From: a virus
Virus record (IMG/VR): IMGVR_UViG_3300032236_000866
Coordinates: 1-47,780 of that record
Reading direction: 5' to 3' (one strand)
Length of the DNA stretch: 47,780 bases
This document shows positions 5,282 to 47,261 of this stretch, one piece after another; positions within the stretch are counted from its first letter, which is position 1, and each line of letters opens with the position of its first letter. Below the pieces are notes generated by a model that did no database searches, was not told where the DNA came from, and saw only the letters and a list, made by a program, of their open reading frames with translations. A program made the position numbers and the translations under genes.

Positions 5282-6318
5282 TTGAAGTATTGATTGTAAC
5301 TAGGGTTAGTTAAAATATTTAGTGCTGAGTTAAGATTATTTAATCTTGAACTATTTTGACCTTTTGCATAAGTAAATCCATATCTTTGAATATAATATCT
5401 TTGGGTTTCACTTTTAAGTGAATTTACTACACCAATCAAAGACTCTCTCTGTGACCTCAAAGTTGTCAATTCATTATTAATTTTATTATATTGAGTTAAA
5501 TAGTCAGAACAACTTATAGGACAAGTTGAAGTTTCTCCAGAATTAATCTCATGTATAAAAACTCCATCAATGTAATTTACATAAGTTGTATTACCATACC
5601 CCAATACTGGTGAACCCACTGAACCAACTTTAAGTACAGCACCAGAACCTGTGGTTCCTACACCAACAATACTTAAAGTATCTCCTACCTTATATCCAAC
5701 CCCCCCACTATAAATGCTTGCAGTTTTAACAGTTTTACCTGAACCGACAACCACATCTGCTACTGCACCAGAACCTGAACCTCCAGTTAATGTTTTAGAA
5801 TAATAAGTTGAAGAAATGTATCCAGAACCACCATTTATGACAATTAAATTTAAAATCGCATCACTATTCAATCCATTTATGGTAGTTCCATATCCAATTC
5901 CATCTGTAAAAATAAGAGGAGTTAATCCAGATTTATATGAATATGGGTCAATTCCATCATAGGTTGGATTATTTGCATTTATTTGATATGATGCTAATTG
6001 CTCATAATAGACAGTAGCACCAACAGCAACAGTAGTAGTCTCACCCGTTGGAACTCCATAAATATCAAGAATTGGAACAGATGCAGTCAATCCACATCCA
6101 CAAGTATTAACAGCAGTTGAAACTTGCGATAAATCATAAATTTTTTTATTAATGTCAACTGTTAAATTTGCAACTACTAAATCTAATTGCTCTGCTGGAT
6201 ATGTAAATTCGTTAATTTTTATTTGTATTGGTCCAATTAAAGTATCAATTGAATCATTTTGACTTTGCAGAGAAATTTGTTCTTCTGCATAAGTATCTAA
6301 AATATCTTGCAATGCCAT
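5278..6318 (-). CDS. Virion structural protein with Gly-rich beta repeats and C-terminal coiled coil
   Basis: This 346-residue protein has an N-terminal helical heptad-like stretch ('YAEEQISLQSQNDSIDTLIG'). The middle contains repeats of the type 'SGYISSTYYSKTLTGGSGSGA' and 'GGVGYKVGDTLSIVGVG'. This 'YSGGxGYxxGD' module also occurs near the C-terminus of the gp5-like hub protein in this operon. A second helical segment at about residues 270-320 looks like a coiled coil. It overlaps the downstream gene by 4 nt and follows the upstream gene by 2 nt. It is probably a baseplate, fibre-attachment or neck component; no T4 homologue is recognised. Confidence 0.6.
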   Translation of the reverse strand: MALQDILDTYAEEQISLQSQNDSIDTLIGPIQIKINEFTYPAEQLDLVVANLTVDINKKIYDLSQVSTAVNTCGCGLTASVPILDIYGVPTGETTTVAVGATVYYEQLASYQINANNPTYDGIDPYSYKSGLTPLIFTDGIGYGTTINGLNSDAILNLIVINGGSGYISSTYYSKTLTGGSGSGAVADVVVGSGKTVKTASIYSGGVGYKVGDTLSIVGVGTTGSGAVLKVGSVGSPVLGYGNTTYVNYIDGVFIHEINSGETSTCPISCSDYLTQYNKINNELTTLRSQRESLIGVVNSLKSETQRYYIQRYGFTYAKGQNSSRLNNLNSALNILTNPSYNQYFK

Positions 6319-10145: not shown

Positions 10146-11456
10146 TTAAGTATTAGTACCATAAAGACCATAGCTATCCCGTATAAGTCGTAGGCTGGTA
10201 ATCATTTGACCACCTTCAAAGTGATGGCGTAATTCTTTAATTAAATAATAACCGCTTTGTTCGTCATCAGCTTTTGCTGTATTTGAACTATCTATTCTTG
10301 GAAATTCAGAGTAGATAATATCACCTACTTTTAAATTAATATTACAAGGAACTATCATATTTAGTGCTTGTCCAAACAAAATATTATATCTTGAATAAGA
10401 CATTGCCATATCAGCACCATTTCTTTTAGCATCCCCTACAGTTCCATCATTATTTAATGCACCTCTATCAGAAGTTCTCACCATAATGCGAGTTATACTG
10501 TCTCCAAATTCTTCAGAGACTGCTAATTTATCTTGACTACCTAATTTATTATTGATTTGGTCTTTTAATTTATAAGTATATAAATCTAATTTATTTGTAT
10601 ATAAATCATAAAAATAGGTCTTATTTGCATAAGTTCCAACACGCAATGCCTTCATTAAATCACTATTCTTTTCAAAGCTATAGTTTAAAATTTTAAATTC
10701 ATTAGCTATTTTATTGCTCTCAATAACTTGAGTATAAAAATAACTTGGTATAGTTTCCTTATTAGTGCTTCCTATTTGAATTTGAGTAGGAGATACCAAA
10801 CTATCTATACTTCTAAAATTAAATCCTTCCTTATTCTCATAAAATAAAAATCCTGCAATTCCTTTTGCTTCTCCAGTCTGACCTCCACCAGAAGTTCCAC
10901 TAACAGGTCCAGTTGCAGGAACTGCTTTAGGTCCTAACCAAGTAAGTGTGTGAAATGGTTTTTTGTTATTTCCGATAAAAGAATAATTATTTGATGTGGA
11001 TTCAATATTATTTTCTTTATATTTTTCAGTTAATAATACATCTTTAAGAATAGTTGTAACCGTATTTTTTAAATTTCCTTGATATTTTCTTTGACATCTA
11101 ACTGTCTCATTTGTTAACCCTTCACGAGAAACCATATGTAAAGTAAACCTTTCATTACCTTGTTGAGCATCCAATCCACTTACTTTATAAACATACATTG
11201 AGTACTTATCATCTAAGACAAAATCACCAAAAATAGTAGAGACATCAATACTAATTGATTCCCCTCCTCTTATAGGCAAAATATTAAAGAGTGAAGAACT
11301 ATTCAGTATCACTGCTATTGCAGTTACACAAGGGGATAGTATATCCTCATAATAATCAAAGAATAATAATGAGTTGGTGATATCTACTGCCTTAGTACCG
11401 TCTAAGGTTTTAATCACAAACTGATTAATTTTATATGAACTAACTGCTAAAGACAT
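10146..11456 (-). CDS. gp27-like baseplate hub protein
   Basis: The 436-residue protein begins 'SLAVSSYKINQFVIKTLDG', continues with 'SISIDVSTIFGDFVL' and has a central 'FHTLTWLGPKAVPA', 'FLFYENKEGFNFRSIDSLVS' segment. The last two phrases are typical of gp27/gpD-type hub proteins that form the trimeric base of the VgrG/gp5 spike. The C-terminal part contains 'NLKVGDIIYSEFPRI', a beta-domain typical of this family. It precedes the gp5-like gene in the same operon, separated by one small ORF. The assignment rests on motif memory and synteny. Confidence 0.65.
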   Translation of the reverse strand: MSLAVSSYKINQFVIKTLDGTKAVDITNSLLFFDYYEDILSPCVTAIAVILNSSSLFNILPIRGGESISIDVSTIFGDFVLDDKYSMYVYKVSGLDAQQGNERFTLHMVSREGLTNETVRCQRKYQGNLKNTVTTILKDVLLTEKYKENNIESTSNNYSFIGNNKKPFHTLTWLGPKAVPATGPVSGTSGGGQTGEAKGIAGFLFYENKEGFNFRSIDSLVSPTQIQIGSTNKETIPSYFYTQVIESNKIANEFKILNYSFEKNSDLMKALRVGTYANKTYFYDLYTNKLDLYTYKLKDQINNKLGSQDKLAVSEEFGDSITRIMVRTSDRGALNNDGTVGDAKRNGADMAMSYSRYNILFGQALNMIVPCNINLKVGDIIYSEFPRIDSSNTAKADDEQSGYYLIKELRHHFEGGQMITSLRLIRDSYGLYGTNT

Positions 11457-13040
11457 TTAACTTGCGGATAAATTTGTAAGAAGTAGAGTTTTTATAAGAC
11501 TATTTACCACTTGACCTTCACTAGGTCCTGGGAGAGTGGTAGTTCCTCCTCCATCACCTCCTCCTACAGGTATATAAACTGGTTGGGAAGAACCACCACC
11601 CCCACCCATAGCAATTACAGAAGGTCTATCAATAATATAGAACTGACTTTGTGAATATGAAGGATATTGTTGAATTTGTGGAACTTGACTTGGTGCTGCA
11701 GGAGCAACCATTTGTGCTTTTATTTGGTCTTGCTGTCTTGATCTTATATCACGAACATAAGAATTATACATTTGCTGTGCTTGCTTCACTTCAGGATCAG
11801 TCACTGGTGTTGTTTGCATAGTATTTTTAAACTGATACTTTTGACCTGTTAATTGTGCTTTTAGTTTAGGGTCTTTGAGTATTCTATCACCACTTTTAGT
11901 TCCTTTAATAAAATCTTCAATTGATTGTTGTTTTTTTATAGTATTGACTTTTTGATCTGCTGATCCTTCTTTTGTGAATTGAGATTGTTTTTGTAAATCT
12001 TTTTTATTTTCTTCTTTTTTTGGTTGGACTTTAGGTACACCCGATTTACTAGATTGCAAATATGGCAAAGGATCTATATCTTGACCTTTAGTATCTTTTC
12101 TCATATAGTGTAAATGAGTATTTCCACCCCAATCCTTAACTGTACCTATTTGTTGTCCTGATTTTACTGTATCACCTATTTTTGCTTGAGCATTTATATG
12201 ACCATAAAGCCCCTGCTGTCCGTTATCATATTTAATAATAAGTGCATCTCCGTGACCTCCATAATTATTATATTTGTCTATAACTTTACCAGTTCTTGTT
12301 GCAACTACTGGACTATTTGGGTCAACTCCAATATCTTGTCCGTGATGGGGTCTTCCTCCATCACGAGTAGATGAAAAAGTTCCTCCCATATATCCTGTAG
12401 TTGTATTAATTCTTGGGTCTCCACTTGGAAGAGGGAATACTTCATCTCCAGTTCCAGTTGGAGTTATTTCGGTTCCTTTATTTTTATAATCAAATTTTTG
12501 GTCTTTTTCTGTTTCTCCTTGTCCCCAATCTCCAGTTTTATTCATTTGTTGAGTAACATTTCCAAATAGCCCAGAAAGTACTCCTTTTTCAAATTTACTT
12601 ACGGCAGAACTAAATTTTGTTATGATATCTTCAAAATTTCCTTTCCCAACGGCTGCTTTTTGTGAAGCTTCTTGTGTTTTTAGTTTTCTTTCAAGTTTCT
12701 GCTTAACTCCATTGTTATTTGCAGTTCCTGCTACTGCTCCCACTACCCCAGCCATTCCTAAAAGACCAGCTCCAGCAAGTCCAAGTCCACCTCCGGATGA
12801 ACTTCCAAATAAATTACTAGGAGCGCCAGAATTAGAAGCAATATTTATATTTGCAAGCTGTGTTATCTTTTTTTTATCTGGAAGTTTTATACTTTCAACT
12901 TGTTTTTTTCGTATATATAAAAAACTTGCAATATCATTATATTGCCCTTCAACTGTTTCCAATGAACCTTTTGAACGAACAGCAGTTGATACAATATTAT
13001 TAGCAGCAGTTTGAAATACAGATTTAAGTGTTATTGCCAT
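11457..13040 (-). CDS. Baseplate hub protein with M23 peptidoglycan endopeptidase domain
   Basis: I chose ATG 13040 (527 residues), 2 nt after the upstream stop; a TTG 6 nt further up is less likely. Residues about 200-330 form an M23 (lysostaphin/LytM) metallopeptidase domain. It shows the first motif HxxxD in 'RPHHGQDIGVD' (H232, D236), then 'GLYGHI', and the HxH motif in 'GGNTHLHY' (H309, H311). These residues bind the catalytic zinc. A Gly/Ala-rich hydrophobic segment lies at about 80-107, and the C-terminal 200 residues are K/Q-rich and then G/P-rich. It probably cuts peptide cross-links locally as the tail penetrates the cell wall. It sits among hub genes, not in a lysis cassette. Confidence 0.75.
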   Translation of the reverse strand: MAITLKSVFQTAANNIVSTAVRSKGSLETVEGQYNDIASFLYIRKKQVESIKLPDKKKITQLANINIASNSGAPSNLFGSSSGGGLGLAGAGLLGMAGVVGAVAGTANNNGVKQKLERKLKTQEASQKAAVGKGNFEDIITKFSSAVSKFEKGVLSGLFGNVTQQMNKTGDWGQGETEKDQKFDYKNKGTEITPTGTGDEVFPLPSGDPRINTTTGYMGGTFSSTRDGGRPHHGQDIGVDPNSPVVATRTGKVIDKYNNYGGHGDALIIKYDNGQQGLYGHINAQAKIGDTVKSGQQIGTVKDWGGNTHLHYMRKDTKGQDIDPLPYLQSSKSGVPKVQPKKEENKKDLQKQSQFTKEGSADQKVNTIKKQQSIEDFIKGTKSGDRILKDPKLKAQLTGQKYQFKNTMQTTPVTDPEVKQAQQMYNSYVRDIRSRQQDQIKAQMVAPAAPSQVPQIQQYPSYSQSQFYIIDRPSVIAMGGGGGSSQPVYIPVGGGDGGGTTTLPGPSEGQVVNSLIKTLLLTNLSAS

Positions 13041-13042
13041 AA

Positions 13043-14743
13043 TCAACCATCCACAATATTATAAACCATTTTAGAATAAAGAACTAAAAAGTTATCTACA
13101 TTTCCTGCAGGAAGAAATGGAACAGAAGGAGCCGCTTTAGAGGGGGGAGGTGGTGCAGAACCCCCTCCCCCTCCACCACCTTGCGATTGCCCACCTACAG
13201 ATGAAACTTTGGGAGGCATCTTTATGGTTGTAATCTTTGCTTGTGGATTAACTGGTTTTGATATCGCATCTGCTTTTGCTTTAGTTTGAGTTGGTGCTGC
13301 TGCTACTTGTGCTGGTGAAGGAAGAATAGGAGCAGATGGCACTCCCTGGTATGTCTTTAAATTTTTTTGATAATTTTGCAAAAATTGTTGTTGTGTTAAT
13401 AATTGTTGAGTGCCTCCGGGAAGTGAAGGCCAAACACCTTTTAATCTTTTCGCAACTGCTAATGGATCTTTTTGTAATTGTGCTACAACTTTACTTTCAT
13501 CGCCACCAAGACCACTTACAATTTCTGTTCTTGTTATTTTATCTTGATTTTCTGGACTATACAAATCTTTATTGGGGTCTAATCCTGCAGCCTTTGCTTT
13601 TGCAACCAAATAGTCGGGCATCTCTTGATACTTTCCAACTGCACCAGTTGCTTTTTTAGCAACTTCAGCAATAGTCATTTTAGTTGCACCAGGTAAATTA
13701 TGAGTTCCACCAGCACCAGTATTCATAGATTCATAATTTCCACCAGATTCTGGACCGGAAATGACATCCATTAAAGATTTTATTTCTGATGGAGCGTTCC
13801 CCTGAATAAGTTGAGTTGGTCCAGAACCTGGACCTTCTGGACCTGGAGAAGGTTTAGGGGCACCACCACTACTTCCACCACCAGAAGGTTTTGATGTAGA
13901 ATTAGGAGTTCCGCCTGCTGCTTTAATTAAATTATCAATAGCATTTGAAAATCTATTAATAATAGAACTTAAACTATTTGCAAGATCTTTGGGAATACTT
14001 TGCTGAACTACTGCAGGTTGAAGATTTTCACTTCCACTTAGTGCATTAATTGTCCCTCCTGCTAACATACCTGCCCCTAAAGCACCTGCTCCAAGAGCAA
14101 GCATCTTTCCTCTACCTCCACCTGATACTTTTTCCGTTGCATTTTTTGTAAGATTAGCACCACCAAATGGAGTTGCGGTGGGGAGATTTGATAACTGATT
14201 TACTATTTTATTAATAGTAATACGAATTAATTTTGCAATCTCAAAACTATCTTCAAATAATTTTCTTAATCCTTTCAAACTAGCTGAAGTTTTATTTAAA
14301 TTTTTCTTGTCTACAAAAAATTGAATAAATCCCGTAACATTATTATAAAGACCAAAGAACTTTTCAAGAATTTTTGAAGGTTTACTATCTTCTATTGATT
14401 TTAATTTATCTTGATATCCTTTTGTAAAATTTTGTAATGTGGTTTGAAATACATTTTGTATATTGTTTACAACACCTTGAACTTTATTATCTTGATTTTT
14501 TATATTTGTATTAAGTGCAGTATCAGTTTTTGTTGAAATTGTAGATACTATACTATTAAAATCTGGAGTTACCGGTCTAACGCCACCTCTTTCAAATGGA
14601 ACAATTTTATTTAAAGAAGTAGAATTTACAATAGAAGAACCTAAAGAACCATTTCCTCCAGTTATAAAGTTCTGGAATTGCTCTACAGTTCCTTTACGAT
14701 TGCCAATAATATTGGGTGAATTTAAAACACTATTAATTGCCAT
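13043..14743 (-). CDS. Baseplate hub protein with lysozyme-like (glycan hydrolase) domain
   Basis: The 566-residue protein has a helical N-terminal half, a Gly/Ala-rich hydrophobic stretch at about 208-235 and a long S/G/P linker (280-310). A lysozyme-like domain follows at about 318-465. The domain contains 'ISGPESGGNYESMN' (candidate catalytic E332), 'GAVGKYQEMP' and 'SPENQDKI', the pattern of phage muramidases and transglycosylases that act on glycan strands. The C-terminus is low-complexity and ends hydrophobic. The start overlaps the preceding 58-residue ORF by 11 nt. Together with the M23 protein next door it likely forms the tail-tip wall-degrading apparatus. A tape-measure-like (gp29) role is also possible from its length. 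Confidence 0.65.
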   Translation of the reverse strand: MAINSVLNSPNIIGNRKGTVEQFQNFITGGNGSLGSSIVNSTSLNKIVPFERGGVRPVTPDFNSIVSTISTKTDTALNTNIKNQDNKVQGVVNNIQNVFQTTLQNFTKGYQDKLKSIEDSKPSKILEKFFGLYNNVTGFIQFFVDKKNLNKTSASLKGLRKLFEDSFEIAKLIRITINKIVNQLSNLPTATPFGGANLTKNATEKVSGGGRGKMLALGAGALGAGMLAGGTINALSGSENLQPAVVQQSIPKDLANSLSSIINRFSNAIDNLIKAAGGTPNSTSKPSGGGSSGGAPKPSPGPEGPGSGPTQLIQGNAPSEIKSLMDVISGPESGGNYESMNTGAGGTHNLPGATKMTIAEVAKKATGAVGKYQEMPDYLVAKAKAAGLDPNKDLYSPENQDKITRTEIVSGLGGDESKVVAQLQKDPLAVAKRLKGVWPSLPGGTQQLLTQQQFLQNYQKNLKTYQGVPSAPILPSPAQVAAAPTQTKAKADAISKPVNPQAKITTIKMPPKVSSVGGQSQGGGGGGGSAPPPPSKAAPSVPFLPAGNVDNFLVLYSKMVYNIVDG

Positions 14744-14909
14744 TTTGTTGGTTCTTTAGGTTCTCTTCTTCTATATGCTGTTGCAATAGTCCCAAATACA
14801 ATTCTCTTTCAAATGGTATCAGATTTTCAATTTCACTTAATGAATATTTATGAAACTGTAGTAGAGAGAAATTAATTCTATAATAACTCTCTAAGTCCAT
14901 ATACGCCAT
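14733..14909 (-). CDS. Small baseplate-operon protein (MDLESYY... type)
   Basis: This 58-residue ORF runs from ATG 14909 (an alternative ATG at 14900 would start 'MDLESYYRINF') to a TAA at 14733-14735, overlapping the next gene by 11 nt. Its sequence ('FHKYSLSEIENLIPFERELY') is the pattern of small conserved proteins found between gp26-like and hub genes in T4-like phages. In many tailed phages such short acidic helical proteins sit just before the tape-measure or hub gene and act as assembly chaperones. It starts 2 nt after the gp26-like stop. The chaperone role is inference. Confidence 0.7.
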   Translation of the reverse strand: MAYMDLESYYRINFSLLQFHKYSLSEIENLIPFERELYLGLLQQHIEEENLKNQQNGN

Positions 14910-14911
14910 AA

Positions 14912-15637
14912 CTAGCCGAAAAAACTTGATAACCCTTCCAATTTAACTTCATTTTCTTTTTTGGTTTTTGGATTAACAACTGTAAAAGTATGAGATAATT
15001 TAGGCATAGTTTGAAAAAATGTATCAATCTTTTTAAATTGTTGAGAATTTAACCCTTCAATAAATTCAACCAATTCTTTTTTAGTACAATCCTTTGCAGA
15101 CCAAGTATCTTCTTGATTAAATACCATATCCATACAAGAAGAAACAATATCAAAAGACTTATCTAACATAGAAGCATCATCCATACTGAAATCAAAATTA
15201 TCTTTAATAAATTTATCCAACGAAGGATATTTCATTCTCAAAACTAAATTATCATCTAATTTTATATCTGTAGAATGCTCTGGATTTTTTTGAACTTGAA
15301 TTTCGTCAATAAAGATTGTTACAGGAACTTGAGTTTCCCCATCGTCTTCACAGGTTACAATTAAATCAATACCTTCTCCGACAGACTTTCCTCTTACATT
15401 TAAGAAGATATATTCAATATCAAAAGTAGGAAGCTCTTCAACTTTGATACCTTTAGTAATAATACACTCTTTTAAAATCTGCTTAATCGCATTCGTAATA
15501 GCTTTTGTATCTTTAGTCTCTAATGCAAGAAGTAATATCTTTTCTTCTTTAACTAAAAATGGCCTATACTTTATTGTCTTTTCTGTAGATGGCAATATCA
15601 ACTCATAAGTTGGAGTTATCGGTTTAGGTAATGGCAT
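14912..15637 (-). CDS. 26: gp26-like baseplate hub subunit
   Basis: The 241-residue protein begins 'PLPKPITPTYELILPSTEK' followed by 'KYRPFLVKEEKILLLALE', a signature I associate with the T4 baseplate gp26 family. The middle region ('IEYIFLNVRGKSVGE', 'VTCEDDGETQVPV') is also typical. It is 240 residues long, a little longer than T4 gp26 (about 208). A late promoter box (CTAAATA, minus strand) lies 22 nt upstream of the ATG, so the hub operon can be transcribed from here. It is followed by the small 58-residue ORF and the hub hydrolases. Confidence 0.75.
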   Translation of the reverse strand: MPLPKPITPTYELILPSTEKTIKYRPFLVKEEKILLLALETKDTKAITNAIKQILKECIITKGIKVEELPTFDIEYIFLNVRGKSVGEGIDLIVTCEDDGETQVPVTIFIDEIQVQKNPEHSTDIKLDDNLVLRMKYPSLDKFIKDNFDFSMDDASMLDKSFDIVSSCMDMVFNQEDTWSAKDCTKKELVEFIEGLNSQQFKKIDTFFQTMPKLSHTFTVVNPKTKKENEVKLEGLSSFFG

Positions 15638-28562: not shown

Positions 28563-28569
28563 CTAAATA
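28563..28569 (+). promoter_or_regulatory. Late promoter box CTAAATA
   Basis: CTAAATA on the plus strand, 20 nt upstream of ATG 28590. Late expression fits a head protein. Confidence 0.68.
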
Positions 28570-28589
28570 CTTAAAACACGTCAGTATAA

Positions 28590-28895
28590 ATGAAAACTTA
28601 TAATGAATTTATCACAGAAGCAAACCTAGCAAAAAAAGCAAAGGATTGGTGGAATAAAGGAAGAGATGAAAGAGTTCCTGATGAGAACAACGCATCTTGG
28701 AAAAAATTGATGGATGATGATAAAAACCAACTAACCAGGACTGATAAAGCATTCAAATCTGGAGCAACTGGTGTTAAAGGTTGGAGACCTCATAAGGCAT
28801 TCAGTCCCGAAATGGTCAAGACAGGACCCACGCCAGCAGTTAGACAAGCATTTGAAAGACCAGTAAGAGCAGTTAAATCAATACTTAAAAGGTAA
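28590..28895 (+). CDS. Candidate internal head protein with capsid-targeting propeptide
   Basis: The 101-residue protein begins MKTYNEFITEA. T4 internal proteins II and III begin MKTYQEFIAEA, a capsid-targeting sequence cut by the gp21 prohead protease after (I/L)-x-E. Here the site would be ITE|A, after residue 10. The predicted mature part (about 91 residues) is basic and starts 'NLAKKAKDWWNKGRDERVPD', ending 'AVRQAFERPVRAVKSILKR', which suits DNA-bound, co-ejected proteins. A late promoter box lies upstream. It has no similarity I can see to T4 IPs beyond the propeptide, which is the usual case for this fast-evolving class. Confidence 0.7.
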   Translation: MKTYNEFITEANLAKKAKDWWNKGRDERVPDENNASWKKLMDDDKNQLTRTDKAFKSGATGVKGWRPHKAFSPEMVKTGPTPAVRQAFERPVRAVKSILKR

Positions 28896-28911: not shown

Positions 28912-29103
28912 ATGGCAAGAGAGTTTGATACCCCTCATAGAGAAAAATGGAACAAACCCATTCACCAAATACTCAAAGCAATAGATAATCATACCCGTCT
29001 TCATTTGGAGACGGGTGATTTGTGGCACGAAGAACAGGCACAGATACTAAGAAAATATATTAAAAGTTTAAAAGTTTGGATACACGAACAGGAAGGAAGA
29101 TAA
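28912..29103 (+). CDS. Conserved cyanophage small protein
   Basis: The 63-residue protein 'AREFDTPHREKWNKPIHQIL' followed by 'AIDNHTRLHLETGDLWHEEQ' and 'LRKYIKSLKVWIHEQ' is a small protein I recognise from most T4-like cyanophages, without known function. It is mostly helical with several His. It follows the internal-protein candidate by 16 nt and ends before a convergent fibre gene; no hairpin terminator is visible in the 45-nt gap. Confidence 0.75.
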   Translation: MAREFDTPHREKWNKPIHQILKAIDNHTRLHLETGDLWHEEQAQILRKYIKSLKVWIHEQEGR

Positions 29104-29148: not shown

Positions 29149-29757
29149 TTAAATTGTTTTATATCCATACAATACGGTTTGACCTATACCGCTATTATTA
29201 GTAATACCAAACGAAAAGATATTACTATTGCTGACAGCGGGACTAGATGTACTTATAGACCCAGATGTGCCGATTATTTGACTTGGTATTGCTGTTAATA
29301 CCAATTGATTTCCCACAGCATAATACCAACCATATTGATTACCTATTACTGGAACATTTGTATTTGAAATGGAAACAGTAGCATTCCAAATACAAATACC
29401 ATTTGGTATATTACCTCTCATCCACATCACATAATTTGCATTTGCTGGTGCAGTAAAACTATAAGTGCCAATACCAGCAGATACAGTCCAACTACCCCCA
29501 TAAGTACCTTGATTTCCATCAGTACCTTGAATGCCCTGTAATCCCTGAACTCCCCGAGTACCTTGAATTCCCTGAACTCCTTGTGTTCCTTGAGTTCCAC
29601 CACCTATCGCCAAGCCTCCCATAGTTGTTCCATCGGATAAACTTAAAGATGGAATGCTGGGATCATAAAATATTTCTCCTTCATTACCAACAAATTGGGT
29701 TGGTTGTGAATCTCCAAGTTTTTCAACAAGAACTCTATAGGTAGTATTAGTAATCAT
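29149..29757 (-). CDS. Collagen-like fibre protein, 202 residues
   Basis: The N-terminus ('ITNTTYRVLVEKLGDSQPTQ', 'NEGEIFYDPSIPSLSLSDGT') is the trimming or attachment module common to phage fibre proteins. Residues about 75-110 are Gly-X-Y triplets ('GTQGTQGVQGIQGTRGVQ'). The C-terminal 90 residues form a beta-rich head ('GTYSFTAPANANYVMWMRGN', 'NSNIFSFGITNNSGIGQTVL'). The collagen vocabulary is the same as in the fibre at 1-2052. A late box ATAAATA lies 21 nt upstream of the ATG. It may be an accessory adhesin or decoration fibre. Confidence 0.7.
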   Translation of the reverse strand: MITNTTYRVLVEKLGDSQPTQFVGNEGEIFYDPSIPSLSLSDGTTMGGLAIGGGTQGTQGVQGIQGTRGVQGLQGIQGTDGNQGTYGGSWTVSAGIGTYSFTAPANANYVMWMRGNIPNGICIWNATVSISNTNVPVIGNQYGWYYAVGNQLVLTAIPSQIIGTSGSISTSSPAVSNSNIFSFGITNNSGIGQTVLYGYKTI

Positions 29758-40936: not shown

Positions 40937-41812
40937 TCAGAACTTGATACCTAGACCAGTTGTGAATACTGGGCTATAAGTTCCATTAGAAACACCATAG
41001 CTATTTGCAGCGTTGGTAGTAGGGAACTTGAGATCAGCAAAACCAACCAAAGAATTAGTGATGCGACCTTCAATACCCAGAGCAAGAACAACTTGACCCT
41101 GTGAACCAACGGCAGACTGATAGTTAGAAGAAGTATTGTTTACAAAGGGAACTTGATAACCAACTCCACCATAAACATTAGCACGACTTACTTTAGTTCC
41201 ATCGGCAAGAGTCTTGCGTGAGATGGAATAATCATAAGTAGCAAGTGCTCCACCGGCAGCACCAATCTGACCAGCAGGGCTACCGACAAAGTTAGCATAA
41301 GGGCGAACTGAAACTTCATTAGCCCAAACAGTAGCAACAGGAAGACGCGCCTGAACGGTAGCACCAGAAACTGTGCGGTTAGCACTATACCCATTACCAG
41401 CAACACCTTGTTGGTCCAGAAGAACACCAACACCAACATACTGACCAACGCCTTGTGCCTTACGAGCAGAAGCAACTTCCAGAGTCGTTACACGAGCATT
41501 AGTAGCAGCCAGTTCCTTAGAGAACTCAGCACGAAGAGCAGCCGCAGTGCGAGCATCTTCAGCACTGGAGAACTCGGAAATGCGGTCCAAGCAAGCATTC
41601 GTCAGAGCAGCCAGCTCAGCACGAGTAGCAGCCTGAGCAGGCTTCAGAGTGCCATTAGGATAGCCAGCAAGGCAACCATAACGAGCATTCAAGTTGGTAA
41701 TTGCCTGATATGCCCAGTTAGTGGGAGAAACATCAGAGAATTGACCAGCAAATGCAGGGGCGGTCATCGCAGAAACGGCAACGGCACCAGCAAAAATAGA
41801 TTTAATTTTCAT
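40937..41812 (-). CDS. Cyanobacterial-type SLH-domain outer membrane porin
   Basis: The 291-residue protein has a signal peptide ('IKSIFAGAVAVSAMTAPAFA', cut about residue 22), an SLH domain ('FSDVSPTNWAYQAITNLNAR', 'GCLAGYPNGTLKPAQAATRA', about 25-75), a helical linker (85-115) and a beta-strand-rich C-terminal part ending 'FTTGLGIKF' with a terminal Phe, as in outer-membrane barrels. SLH-porins are the main outer-membrane proteins of cyanobacteria. The gene is clearly more GC-rich than its neighbours, with codons such as GCC, CTG and CGT, which indicates host origin. It has a T4 late box TATAAATA upstream, so its expression is now under phage control. Confidence 0.88.
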   Translation of the reverse strand: MKIKSIFAGAVAVSAMTAPAFAGQFSDVSPTNWAYQAITNLNARYGCLAGYPNGTLKPAQAATRAELAALTNACLDRISEFSSAEDARTAAALRAEFSKELAATNARVTTLEVASARKAQGVGQYVGVGVLLDQQGVAGNGYSANRTVSGATVQARLPVATVWANEVSVRPYANFVGSPAGQIGAAGGALATYDYSISRKTLADGTKVSRANVYGGVGYQVPFVNNTSSNYQSAVGSQGQVVLALGIEGRITNSLVGFADLKFPTTNAANSYGVSNGTYSPVFTTGLGIKF

Positions 41813-43115: not shown

Positions 43116-45158
43116 TTAATCTTCGTCTTTTGGTCTATATCTACCAACTTCGGGCATTGGTAATGGTCTCTTGCCACCTTTAGTTGCTACACTTCTTCTT
43201 GCTGTATTGATATTATCAAATCTGTCAAGGTTTTTCATTGCTTTTTTTCTTTCAGGAGAACCCATAGGTGTGCTCAATGTTGCAAAATGTTCTTCATCAC
43301 TACCAAGAAGTTCTGTTTCTTTTCTCTTCATTTTAGCAATAGGAAGAGGTTTCTTTTCTTCAATGATACTGTCAAACCAGTTCTCACTCATATTATTGAT
43401 AATTTCATTTGCATCTTCAACTGATGTTGCAAAATTGTTTTCAAGAAGGTATGATGCTACAAGTTCGTATGCTTCATATGCTTCTCTATTGAGCATTTTT
43501 TTCTCTCTAGGGGTTAAAGCACTTCTTTGGTTTCCTCTTGCTGCTTGCTTTGCTTTTACCGCAGGAGTATCAGATTGATGAGCATATCCACGAAGACCAT
43601 AATCAGAAGAAGTTGTTCTGCGGAAATCACCTCTCTGCGCTCTTGCAAATTTTTCTCTTGATGCTTCCTTTGCAGTATCTCCATAAGTTGGTCTGTTTTC
43701 TAATTCAGTTGCTTTATCGGCAAATTTTCCACCACCTGTTGATTTTGCAATCTTATTACGAATTGCAACCTCATCATGACCTCTTTTAGACATTGCAGTT
43801 GCTTCATTCGCAAGCACTTTCTTACGAATTGCTCCAGCAACTCTATTTCCTGCTTCTTTTGAACCATATTTCTTTGCTGCTTTTGCAGCAATCTTCTTAA
43901 ACATCAAACCTGGTTTACCTTCGTCTCTTTCTTCAATATACTCAAGTTCTTCATAAATCTCAAACATATCTTCCCAAGTATATTCACTTAGGTCATAACC
44001 TTCTTCTAAAAGTTCATTTACCCAGAGTTCTACTTCTTCTTTTTTGACAGACTTAAGAACTCTGTCAGCAGCAGACCCAAGATTATCCTTTCTGAGATTT
44101 GGGTTCAGTCTTCTGGTTGCCTCTGGAGCCTTCTCCTTTGTTTTAGGTGCTTGTGAACCCATAGGTCTCTCGGACACCCTTCCAGTTGCTCCATGCATCT
44201 GATTAAGGATTGCTGACGCTGCCCTTTCAAGTGCTTCTGCTTTCTTAGCTTCTTTTCTTTGCCTTGCTACTTCACTTGTCCTACGGGAAGATGTCATTAC
44301 TGCACCTTCTTTTTCCATCTCCTTTACTCTTGCTCGTCTTGCCGCTATTCTTGCTTCTTTTTCTGCCTTAGTTTCTTCATCCAAAGAATACTCTTCTTTG
44401 TTATAAGATTTGTTCTTTACTTTTTTAATTGCTTCTTCTCTAGACATACCAGAAGCAACCATTCTTGCAATCATATTATCGGCAAAATCGTTGTCACCAT
44501 CTCCATCCTTGTCTCTGGATGCATTATACTCTTTTTTCTTTGCTTCATAGATTGAAGCATAAGCACTTGCAATATTTCCGATTTCTTTTTCAGAAGGCCA
44601 TTCATAAGATTGATTTTGTGTCACTGGTTTTGATACTCCTGATGATGCAGCATTTTTTGCGGCAACACTTGCATAACGAGATTTCTCTGTATCAGTAAAT
44701 GCTCGTGCCTTAAAATTAGAACCAACTCCTGTCCCTTCTACTCCATTTTTCTTTGATAGAACTGGACTAGAAGCTGTTGCTGCTGGTCTTGCTACTGCAG
44801 GTGCAGGCGTTGTTGGTCTTGATACTGCTGGTGTAGGTGCTGGTGTAGGTGCTGGTTTTGATACTGCTGGTGTAGGTGTAGTTGCTGCAAACTTCCCTGT
44901 TGTTTTATCTAAAGTTCCTTCAACTCCACCTTTGGCAGCCTTAACTACAGGATTTACTCCACCAAATCTCTGTGCTCTCTGAGCATCCAATCTTGAATTA
45001 GATTGTCTTTCGGCAGCCATATCAGACCTTACTTTATCAACTGCCTTTTGGCCACCCAAATTTATTCCAACTTCAGTAATATATTCGCCATTCAACTCAT
45101 CTCCACTATAAACACTTAAATACAAATCGTTCCAGGTGTCCAATTCTTTTTTATCCAT
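43116..45158 (-). CDS. Large, basic, probably virion-associated protein
   Basis: The 680-residue protein is charged and helical. It has a proline-rich linker (about 90-130; 'TPTPAVSKPAPTPAPTPAVS'), an EF-hand-like 'DKDGDGDNDFADNM' segment (about 218-231), lysine- and arginine-rich helices (about 250-370), and a repeated acidic helical module: 'VELWVNELLEEGYDLSEYTW' and later 'YELVASYLLENNFATSVEDA' followed by 'NEIINNMSENWFDSIIEE'. A similar module is in the 460-residue protein at 45857. The pattern fits conserved T4-like cyanophage structural or core proteins, but no function is known. A late box lies upstream and a strong terminator lies downstream. Confidence 0.7.
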   Translation of the reverse strand: MDKKELDTWNDLYLSVYSGDELNGEYITEVGINLGGQKAVDKVRSDMAAERQSNSRLDAQRAQRFGGVNPVVKAAKGGVEGTLDKTTGKFAATTPTPAVSKPAPTPAPTPAVSRPTTPAPAVARPAATASSPVLSKKNGVEGTGVGSNFKARAFTDTEKSRYASVAAKNAASSGVSKPVTQNQSYEWPSEKEIGNIASAYASIYEAKKKEYNASRDKDGDGDNDFADNMIARMVASGMSREEAIKKVKNKSYNKEEYSLDEETKAEKEARIAARRARVKEMEKEGAVMTSSRRTSEVARQRKEAKKAEALERAASAILNQMHGATGRVSERPMGSQAPKTKEKAPEATRRLNPNLRKDNLGSAADRVLKSVKKEEVELWVNELLEEGYDLSEYTWEDMFEIYEELEYIEERDEGKPGLMFKKIAAKAAKKYGSKEAGNRVAGAIRKKVLANEATAMSKRGHDEVAIRNKIAKSTGGGKFADKATELENRPTYGDTAKEASREKFARAQRGDFRRTTSSDYGLRGYAHQSDTPAVKAKQAARGNQRSALTPREKKMLNREAYEAYELVASYLLENNFATSVEDANEIINNMSENWFDSIIEEKKPLPIAKMKRKETELLGSDEEHFATLSTPMGSPERKKAMKNLDRFDNINTARRSVATKGGKRPLPMPEVGRYRPKDED

Positions 45159-45668: not shown

Positions 45669-45879
45669 TTAGGTTCTCGCAGAACTCTTTGAATGTCTTT
45701 TTCTTTATCCAAGTATCTGGAGTTTTATTGTGTTTATTTACAAAACCATTATGAAGTTCCTTTGCAGTAAGGTCATACTTCTTCATAATGGGTCTCATCA
45801 ACTTATCTATAGAAGAATAAGAGGTCTTCTTTAACTTAAGAAGACCTCTTTCAAGTTCAAGTATCGCTGAAGTTAGCAT
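45658..45879 (-). CDS. Small conserved basic protein, 73 residues
   Basis: The protein ('SYSSIDKLMRPIMKKYDLTA', then 'KELHNGFVNKHNKTPDTWIK') matches a small conserved family in T4-like cyanophages. It overlaps the end of the 460-residue gene by 23 nt and the next gene by 11 nt. It is basic and helical; no function known. Confidence 0.7.
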   Translation of the reverse strand: MLTSAILELERGLLKLKKTSYSSIDKLMRPIMKKYDLTAKELHNGFVNKHNKTPDTWIKKKTFKEFCENLNEL

Positions 45880-47239
45880 TTTCCTCTAAGTAGCTTTTCC
45901 AATATTCATAACAAGACAACTCTTCACCCATACCTCTTCTTGCCCTTTGTCTTCTTCTTTGCGTTTGCTTTATGGTTGATGATGGATTATCACTAGTTCT
46001 TCCACCTTTTGTTCCTTGATAAGAACGAAGTTGTGTTTCGCCAGATGCATTTGGTTTTGCCAAATGAGTTTTAATTTTTGTGGAAGTTGGTTGATTTTTC
46101 TTTTCCCCCTCAAATGCCTTATGGACCTTTGCGGCATCATCATACATATGAATTTTCTTGGCACCACTCTGCTTTGCAACTCCTTTTGCTACATCTACTT
46201 TTTTCTTTCCAATATCACTACCTTTCATTCCACCAGTATAATGAATTTTATTGATAGGAACATCAACACCCTTCTTCTTCAAATGCCCTTGAAACTCTGA
46301 TGGATTATCAAACTTCGCACGAGCAGTGATGATATGAACATTTTGACCTCTTGCTTGCTTTCTTTTTACATCTTTAATTACTTTTTTGTTTGCGCTTGAA
46401 GTTTCTCCAAACTTTTTGGCACTTCTGAATTCACTAAAATCATAAGAATGTCCTTTATCAAGTTTATGAGTATTGAACTCTTGATTGCTTAAACTCTTAA
46501 CTCTTTTACCAGATGCATCATTTACATGAACCTGAACATTTGTTTTCCCTTTCTTGCCATGTCCAACCAAAGTTTCATCTACATCATATGCGTGAACTGT
46601 TTTCTTTGGCCTGGTTCCTCTCGCTTTCTCTTCAATATACTCTTCAAGAATGGCTGACACAAATTCATTACTCATATACTCAAACATATTTTCAGCAGTC
46701 TCATAATCTTCTGCGAAATCAGCATCAATCAAAGTTTCAATTACAAACTCATAAGCATCATTATAATCAAGTTCTTCTGGAACACAATTGTTTACTTTTT
46801 TACCATTTTTCATTTTAAACCCTTTTTTCTTCTTACCGGGCCAGCATTTTGTAAATCCATTATCATCTGCTTCTTCACTCATTGCTTGCTTTCTTTTCCA
46901 AGCATAATAAATCTTTTCTCCTTTTTCTGCACCATACTCTTTCATCATAGCGGTCTTTGCAGAACCAGTTTTCTTTCCAAGTGCTTCTTCTTTTCTTCTC
47001 TCTGCAGAAGTCATATGTCTTTCCCCAAGTTCAACTTCTTCTTTTCTTACAGTCTTCACAAAACCAGGAACATCTACTTGTTTTGCTTTTTTTCTTTGTA
47101 ATTCTACTGCTTTAGGTCCAAGTTGTGCTGCCGCATCTGGTGTTAATGCTGATGCCCCACTAGATTTTTTAATTTGACTTTGAGACCCCTTCAATACTCC
47201 TTCACTATAAACTCTTTTGAACTTAGAAATTCCAGACAT
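45857..47239 (-). CDS. Virion-type protein fused to a HAD-superfamily phosphatase domain
   Basis: I use ATG 47239 (460 residues); a TTG 12 nt upstream is possible. The N-terminal half has 'TSAERRKEEALGKKTGSAKT', 'YGAEKGEKIYYAWKRKQAMS' and the acidic helical module 'YEFVIETLIDADFAEDYETA' plus 'FEYMSNEFVSAILEE', shared with the 680-residue protein. The C-terminal half (about residues 212-385) is a HAD domain: 'VHAYDVDETLVGHG' (DxDET, nucleophile D), 'VHIITARAK' (motif II T), 'GKKKVDVAKGV' (motif III K) and 'IHMYDDAAK' (motif IV DD). HAD domains of this kind dephosphorylate small molecules or nucleic acid 3' ends. A late box lies upstream. Confidence 0.75.
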   Translation of the reverse strand: MSGISKFKRVYSEGVLKGSQSQIKKSSGASALTPDAAAQLGPKAVELQRKKAKQVDVPGFVKTVRKEEVELGERHMTSAERRKEEALGKKTGSAKTAMMKEYGAEKGEKIYYAWKRKQAMSEEADDNGFTKCWPGKKKKGFKMKNGKKVNNCVPEELDYNDAYEFVIETLIDADFAEDYETAENMFEYMSNEFVSAILEEYIEEKARGTRPKKTVHAYDVDETLVGHGKKGKTNVQVHVNDASGKRVKSLSNQEFNTHKLDKGHSYDFSEFRSAKKFGETSSANKKVIKDVKRKQARGQNVHIITARAKFDNPSEFQGHLKKKGVDVPINKIHYTGGMKGSDIGKKKVDVAKGVAKQSGAKKIHMYDDAAKVHKAFEGEKKNQPTSTKIKTHLAKPNASGETQLRSYQGTKGGRTSDNPSSTIKQTQRRRQRARRGMGEELSCYEYWKSYLEENANFSDT

Positions 47240-47261
47240 ATGAATACGCAATACTTTTTTT

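Follow-up and report, generated by a model that had tools for sequence, protein, structure and literature searches.

A predicted internal head protein of a cyanophage carries a domain that recurs in tail and putative head proteins of uncultivated phages

The window, that is the whole stretch of 47,780 nucleotides that was analysed, contains on its + strand a gene for a small protein in which a putative capsid-targeting peptide is joined to a cargo domain (Table 1). The translation is MKTYNEFITEANLAKKAKDWWNKGRDERVPDENNASWKKLMDDDKNQLTRTDKAFKSGATGVKGWRPHKAFSPEMVKTGPTPAVRQAFERPVRAVKSILKR (101 aa), and its start, MKTYNEFITEA, is exactly that given in the sequence-only reading, an earlier interpretation of this DNA made from the letters without database searches. 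Among cultured phages, Synechococcus and Prochlorococcus myoviruses gave the nearest matches to those regions that were tested; the label cyanophage, already used in that reading, is therefore fair. The late promoter placed ahead of the gene was also recovered, as CTAAATAC. The motif NTAAATAN was located 26-43 nt upstream of 14 of the 53 listed window genes, compared with about 0.9 expected from site density. An TATAAATG element lying over the start codon (28585-28592) was rejected as promoter because its transcription would start inside the gene, and CTAAATAC was taken instead. Comparison of the gene with six relatives gave dN/dS values of 0.05-0.15, that is, purifying selection, and in the same comparison the leader was preserved at the protein level while its own synonymous sites changed.

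Table 1. Features of the window that bear on the tagged gene and on the tail slot.
Feature	Position	Strand	Basis
Late-type promoter element CTAAATAC	28563..28570	+	27 nt upstream of ATG
Whole gene, 101-aa protein made up of putative capsid-targeting peptide and cargo domain	28590..28895	+	ORF list, translation
Leader MKTYNEFITE, a T4-type capsid-targeting sequence with its predicted cut after Glu10 (ITE/A)	28590..28619	+	T4 comparison, PHROG match
Predicted mature 91-residue basic protein, pI 10.4	28620..28892	+	computed composition
Mobile domain WWNKGR...GPTPAVRQAFERPVR, about residues 20-95	28647..28874	+	common to tail/head proteins of other phages
Downstream neighbour, 63 aa, conserved	28912..29103	+	adjacent in L001-L005, L008, L009
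gp26-like baseplate hub protein, slot marker	14912..15637	-	synteny
gp51-like baseplate hub assembly catalyst	14733..14909	-	synteny
Tail-slot protein, 566 aa, endolysin-like PHROG 90, without the domain	13043..14743	-	comparison with carriers
Second tail-slot protein, 529 aa, M23 peptidase domain, without the domain	11457..13046	-	

Internal proteins II and III of T4 both begin with MKTYQEFIAEA in NC_000866, as the sequence-only reading had stated, and IPI of the same record begins with MKTFKEFTSTTTPVSTITEA and has an ITE/A site at residues 17-19 (here and below, a slash marks the cut). Mutagenesis of T4 IPIII covered leader residues 2, 4, 7, 8 and 10; capsid targeting depends on residues 4 and 7, and processing on residues 8 and 10 (PMC9026906). 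Y4, F7, I8 and E10 of the window protein are identical to the IPIII residues. The protein thus has the aromatic residue 4 and the Phe7 of the targeting signal as well as the (I/L)xE followed by a small residue of the processing signal (I8, E10, A11), and the predicted cut at ITE is consistent with the rule from which it had been proposed. Among the relatives the cleavage motif varies as ITE, IIE, ISE, IGE, IVE, LTE and IDE. The predicted mature part, residues 11-101, is basic as described before (22 K/R vs 11 D/E; pI 10.4).

Database comparisons agree with this assignment. The best of the PHROG internal head matches obtained by hmmscan was PHROG 2667, 'internal head protein' (E 1.3e-4, residues 1-42), and a protein of Enterobacter phage CC31 (L069) has the first 11 residues, MKTYNEFITEA, identical to those of the window protein. 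Of the 7,661 distinct ORF starts that the fetched loci contain, 29 fit the looser pattern M[KR]T[FY]xx[FYL] against 0.77 expected, an excess that is partly due to selection because the loci were picked for the domain family, the count also taking in unrelated neighbouring ORFs. Within the 47.8-kb window the pattern occurs at a single ORF start. The match of the leader to the T4 internal proteins is, on these comparisons, closer than chance would give. Capsid targeting of the window protein by its leader, as originally read, is well supported by the match to T4 at residues 4, 7, 8 and 10, by conservation of the tag across synonymous divergence and by its recurrence in four clades of relatives (see below). 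gp21 is a core gene in T4-like phages (PMC9026906); no head core genes were recognised in the window, a 47.8-kb fragment.

The remainder of the protein had been described as showing no visible family. This holds for the named databases: no match to the domain was found in Pfam or PADLOC, and the PHROG matches of the window protein arise via the leader only, those to internal proteins all lying in the N-terminal half, within residues 1-50. It does not hold for viral contigs. A viral contig search for relatives yielded 69 loci, and a profile of the body yielded 121, of which 80 were kept; altogether the domain was found in more than 100 uncultivated viral contigs. Judged from its sequence, the body is a member of a previously unnamed family that is in no named database, defined here as the WWNKGR/GPTPAVRQAFERP family. 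The conserved features in an alignment of 82 sequences are WWNKGR, a DD pair and GPTPAVRQAFERPVR, and the window protein has every listed invariant or near-invariant position (W20, W21, N22, G24, R25, R28, E32, L40, D43, D44, G58, P67, G79, P80, T81, P82, R85, Q86, E89 and R90). Every carrier of the domain is a metagenome contig. With four versions of the domain as tblastn queries, no copy was detected among 50,697 records of cultured phages, and a cellular origin was rejected on finding no relative in 84,980 prokaryote genomes. A DNA-level element was likewise rejected; synonymous codons vary freely across the most conserved motif, which indicates that selection acts on the protein.

Fold searches were carried out with the same domain. 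A PDB profile search returned thiolase matches of chance level only and no relative of solved structure. Two AlphaFold models are helical with middling confidence (mean pLDDT 73 and 70), and their comparison with PDB folds gave no match. One viral protein, A0A8S0HVC0 (135 aa, 35-38% identity), matched in fold, weakly, and is unnamed. No enzyme motif was found in the domain, nor was any likeness to IPI, IPII or IPIII beyond the leader, either by sequence profile or by PDB fold. The models point to a small, mostly helical domain; its sequence is highly conserved.

In other phages the domain occurs in small tagged and in large contexts. The small tagged forms are 101-155 aa long, start with MKT(Y/F)xxF (MRTY in a few) and belong to four clades, consisting of the window protein with L001-L009, of L052-L059 with L162, of L110, and of L205 with L207. 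Two of the clades have longer, IPI-like leaders that end in LTE/G and IDE/G; the leader of L110 is MKTFKEFRQDTLTE/G and that of L205 and L207 is MKTYKEFSERAYSSQIDE/G. The clade of L052-L059 and L162 is without Ile8, and some of its members have Asp10, a residue which in T4 blocks processing and leaves targeting intact; this clade counts against the explanation favoured below.

The large carriers, of 260-2,192 aa, fall into several groups without detectable mutual similarity after the domain is masked. Giant tape measures (L060; PHROG 3779, E 2e-33) are among them; others are tail lysins bearing VanY or SLT domains, and some have weak tape-measure or endolysin matches. In the tape and hub carriers, the domain is situated 50-330 residues before the C-terminus. 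In L107, L109 and L111 it is inside a protein of 1,482 aa with a cytidyltransferase N-terminus and three (I/L)(D/N)E sites, one of which (ETQLDE/IG) is directly ahead of the domain. The open-ended ORF beside this carrier (L109:6018-10241, +; at least 1,408 aa) has 13 such sites against 0.5 expected, and its product looks like a head polyprotein with many prohead protease cuts (EEVELDEA-type sites). A Dps-like ORF was seen by eye at 5570-6016 of the same contig. Purified virions of cyanophage S-CREM2 contain a cytidylyltransferase and two endolysins (PMC10665884), which supports a virion location of the domain carriers. The tail-class carriers are placed in the virion by their sequence class, and the cytidyltransferase polyprotein would presumably be located there as well. 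In the window, basic low-complexity proteins are encoded at 45857-47251 and 43116-45158 (-); that of 45857-47251 has PHROGs 4359 and 9737 in common with the domain-bearing polyprotein of L109 and may be a head-core protein too.

In the T4-like classes the carrier is found directly after the gp26/gp51 homologues, with homologues of the hub gene 10146-11456 lying beyond it. This slot houses most of the tail-type copies of the domain. The domain was not found in either tail-slot protein of the window, and no sequence homology was found between these proteins and the domain-bearing slot proteins, so that the comparison of slots rests on synteny. A single domain copy was present in 23 of the 24 contigs examined. 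In a 177.7-kb relative the domain is in the tail slot and no MKT[FY]xxF start was found; in one contig with the tagged form, a second tagged ORF is present. The complementarity of head and tail copies is read from the one contig with a tagged form that reaches the tail slot, namely the window. A similar tail locus is present in about 300 cultured phages, in which no domain copy is detectable, and the alignment of carrier L064 with its cultured cyanophage homologues extends to residue 405-406, just ahead of the domain.

The domain tree, which has 92 columns for 82 rows and in which many forks are open, requires six switches between the small and the large context, of which well-supported branches force at least three. 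The tail slot proteins of L068 (1-7693) and L106 (1-5547) are 95% identical over the 399 residues preceding the domain and 47% identical within it. For L064 and L100, identity is 81% before the domain, 42% within it and 69% after it. Divergent versions have therefore been swapped inside carriers that are otherwise almost the same, which amounts to a cassette exchange within virion proteins. It is about an even call that a single ejected effector domain, irrespective of route, has moved repeatedly, in aquatic T4-like phages, among tagged head cargo, a head polyprotein that the prohead protease cuts, and tape-measure/hub proteins, with divergent versions swapped and one copy per genome reaching the host at entry.

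The overall explanation that we favour, and consider somewhat better than an even bet, is that the window gene encodes an internal head protein, a portable genome-entry module delivered via the head. Residues 1-10 would bring the protein into the prohead core, a gp21-type protease would cut after ITE (strongly indicated by the sequence), and the mature 91-residue protein would exit with the DNA at infection, as expected from the T4 internal proteins. We infer packaging, cleavage, ejection, their timing and the target. The domain would then act outside the virion, where and when the genome enters, as a free protein in the window phage and tethered to a tail protein in most relatives. Action after exit is the most economical reading because the same domain is present in head cargo and in tape proteins, and a role after ejection is suggested by carriers that all are, or probably are, virion proteins able to exit at infection. 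There it may well neutralise a host factor encountered by the incoming genome, for example a nuclease or another entry-stage defence. Such counter-defence is the leading guess, with roughly equal prospects of being right or wrong. IP1, IP2 and IP3 of T4 are injected and inhibit Type IV restriction enzymes (PMC12373910), and SNIPE, a membrane nuclease, acts at the tape measure on the DNA of an entering phage (PMC13190303); by analogy, a domain that is fixed to the tape measure or comes in with the DNA would be in a good position to counter factors of this kind. Injection to counter host defences had been proposed in the sequence-only reading by analogy with IPI-III of T4. That reading had missed the mobile cargo domain and its tail and head-polyprotein contexts; these strengthen the ejected part of the proposal and leave the target broad, an envelope role included.

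Because the domain is strongly conserved and the T4 counter-defence proteins are alike in their leaders only, a conserved entry target fits no less well than an arms race would. Instead of being an effector, the domain could belong to the entry machinery: it would dock on some conserved component of the inner membrane or wall and aid genome crossing, borne covalently by the tail elsewhere and supplied from the head here. Wall hydrolases (VanY, SLT) also occur in tail slot proteins, the domain lies towards the C-terminus of the tape and hub proteins, the GPTPAVRQAFERPVR tail is strongly conserved, and version swapping would suit different host partners. However, a free protein packed in the head exits with or after the DNA, late for the opening of a channel, and the cultured phages with a similar tail locus do without a detectable domain. 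We hold this role to be rather unlikely, though it accounts for the data nearly as well as counter-defence does.

A head-assembly or DNA-condensing protein without a role after ejection, as partly applies to T4 IPIII, is improbable. Such a function would suit a small, basic protein with a core-targeting leader, and T4 IPIII mutants show head-assembly defects (PMC9026906), but head assembly has no bearing on the tail tape-measure and hub proteins within which the same domain is found. Still less credible is that the leader resembles those of the T4 internal proteins by coincidence and that the product is an ordinary cytoplasmic late protein. The solitary start of this type in the window would agree with coincidence; against it stand the excess of such starts in the fetched loci, their recurrence in the four small-form clades, the PHROG internal head match and the conservation of the tag at the protein level.

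The favoured internal head protein would resemble T4 IPII and IPIII (and IPI) in its MKTYxEFIxEA leader, (I/L)xE motif, small basic mature part and late-type expression, and the loci of its relatives hold other leader-bearing ORFs, as in T4. The mature parts are without detectable similarity, and whereas the T4 proteins have only the leader in common, the cargo here is a conserved domain found also in tail and polyprotein contexts. Many uncultivated relatives carry the domain, up to 76% identical, inside the tape-measure, hub or lysin protein that follows gp26-gp51 in T4-like cyanophages; in the window, by contrast, the slot is without it and the domain is a separate, putatively head-targeted gene. 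Likeness to S-CREM2 ORF154 and NMNAT-like cytidyltransferase-type virion proteins runs through the 1,482-aa carrier with its prohead-protease-like sites, which has many further segments, unlike the single tagged domain of the window protein. In L006 (5411-6004 and 6001-6336) the last 4 nt of a GH19-type endolysin gene also belong to the tagged gene; ipII and ipIII of T4 likewise adjoin the lysozyme gene e.

Discovery of injected effectors has so far relied on leader peptides or proteomics. With one domain occurring as tagged head cargo and as tape-measure insert, each context informs the other: the tail contexts predict an ejected role, and the free form offers a 91-residue protein suited to expression and testing on its own. 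These results suggest one infection-start module delivered by three routes. T4-type capsid targeting would be extended to cyanophages, and a sequence handle is provided on delivered proteins of uncultivated ocean and lake phages.

Additional small ORFs with leaders of this kind were noted at L004:6752-7126 (MKTFREFIAE), L205:2983-3474 (MKTFKQFSEQ), L059:3024-3434 (MKTFREFQEE), L052:665-838 (MKTFQQFSEK), L008:1-317 (-) (MKTFSQFQED) and L006:6314-6514 (MKTLNDFLDE); they are candidates for further internal proteins of cyanophage-like contigs. Elsewhere in the window, 40937-41812 (-) encodes a secreted protein that has an SLH-like stretch (FSDVSPTNWAYQAITNLNARYGCLAGYPNGTLKP), resembles cyanobacterial outer-membrane porins, matches no PHROG family and has an 88% identical copy in L001. 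Collagen-like GxQG repeats are present at 29149-29757 (-), together with tail-fibre PHROG matches, and were seen by eye at 1-548 in an overlapping frame of a repeat-rich gene.
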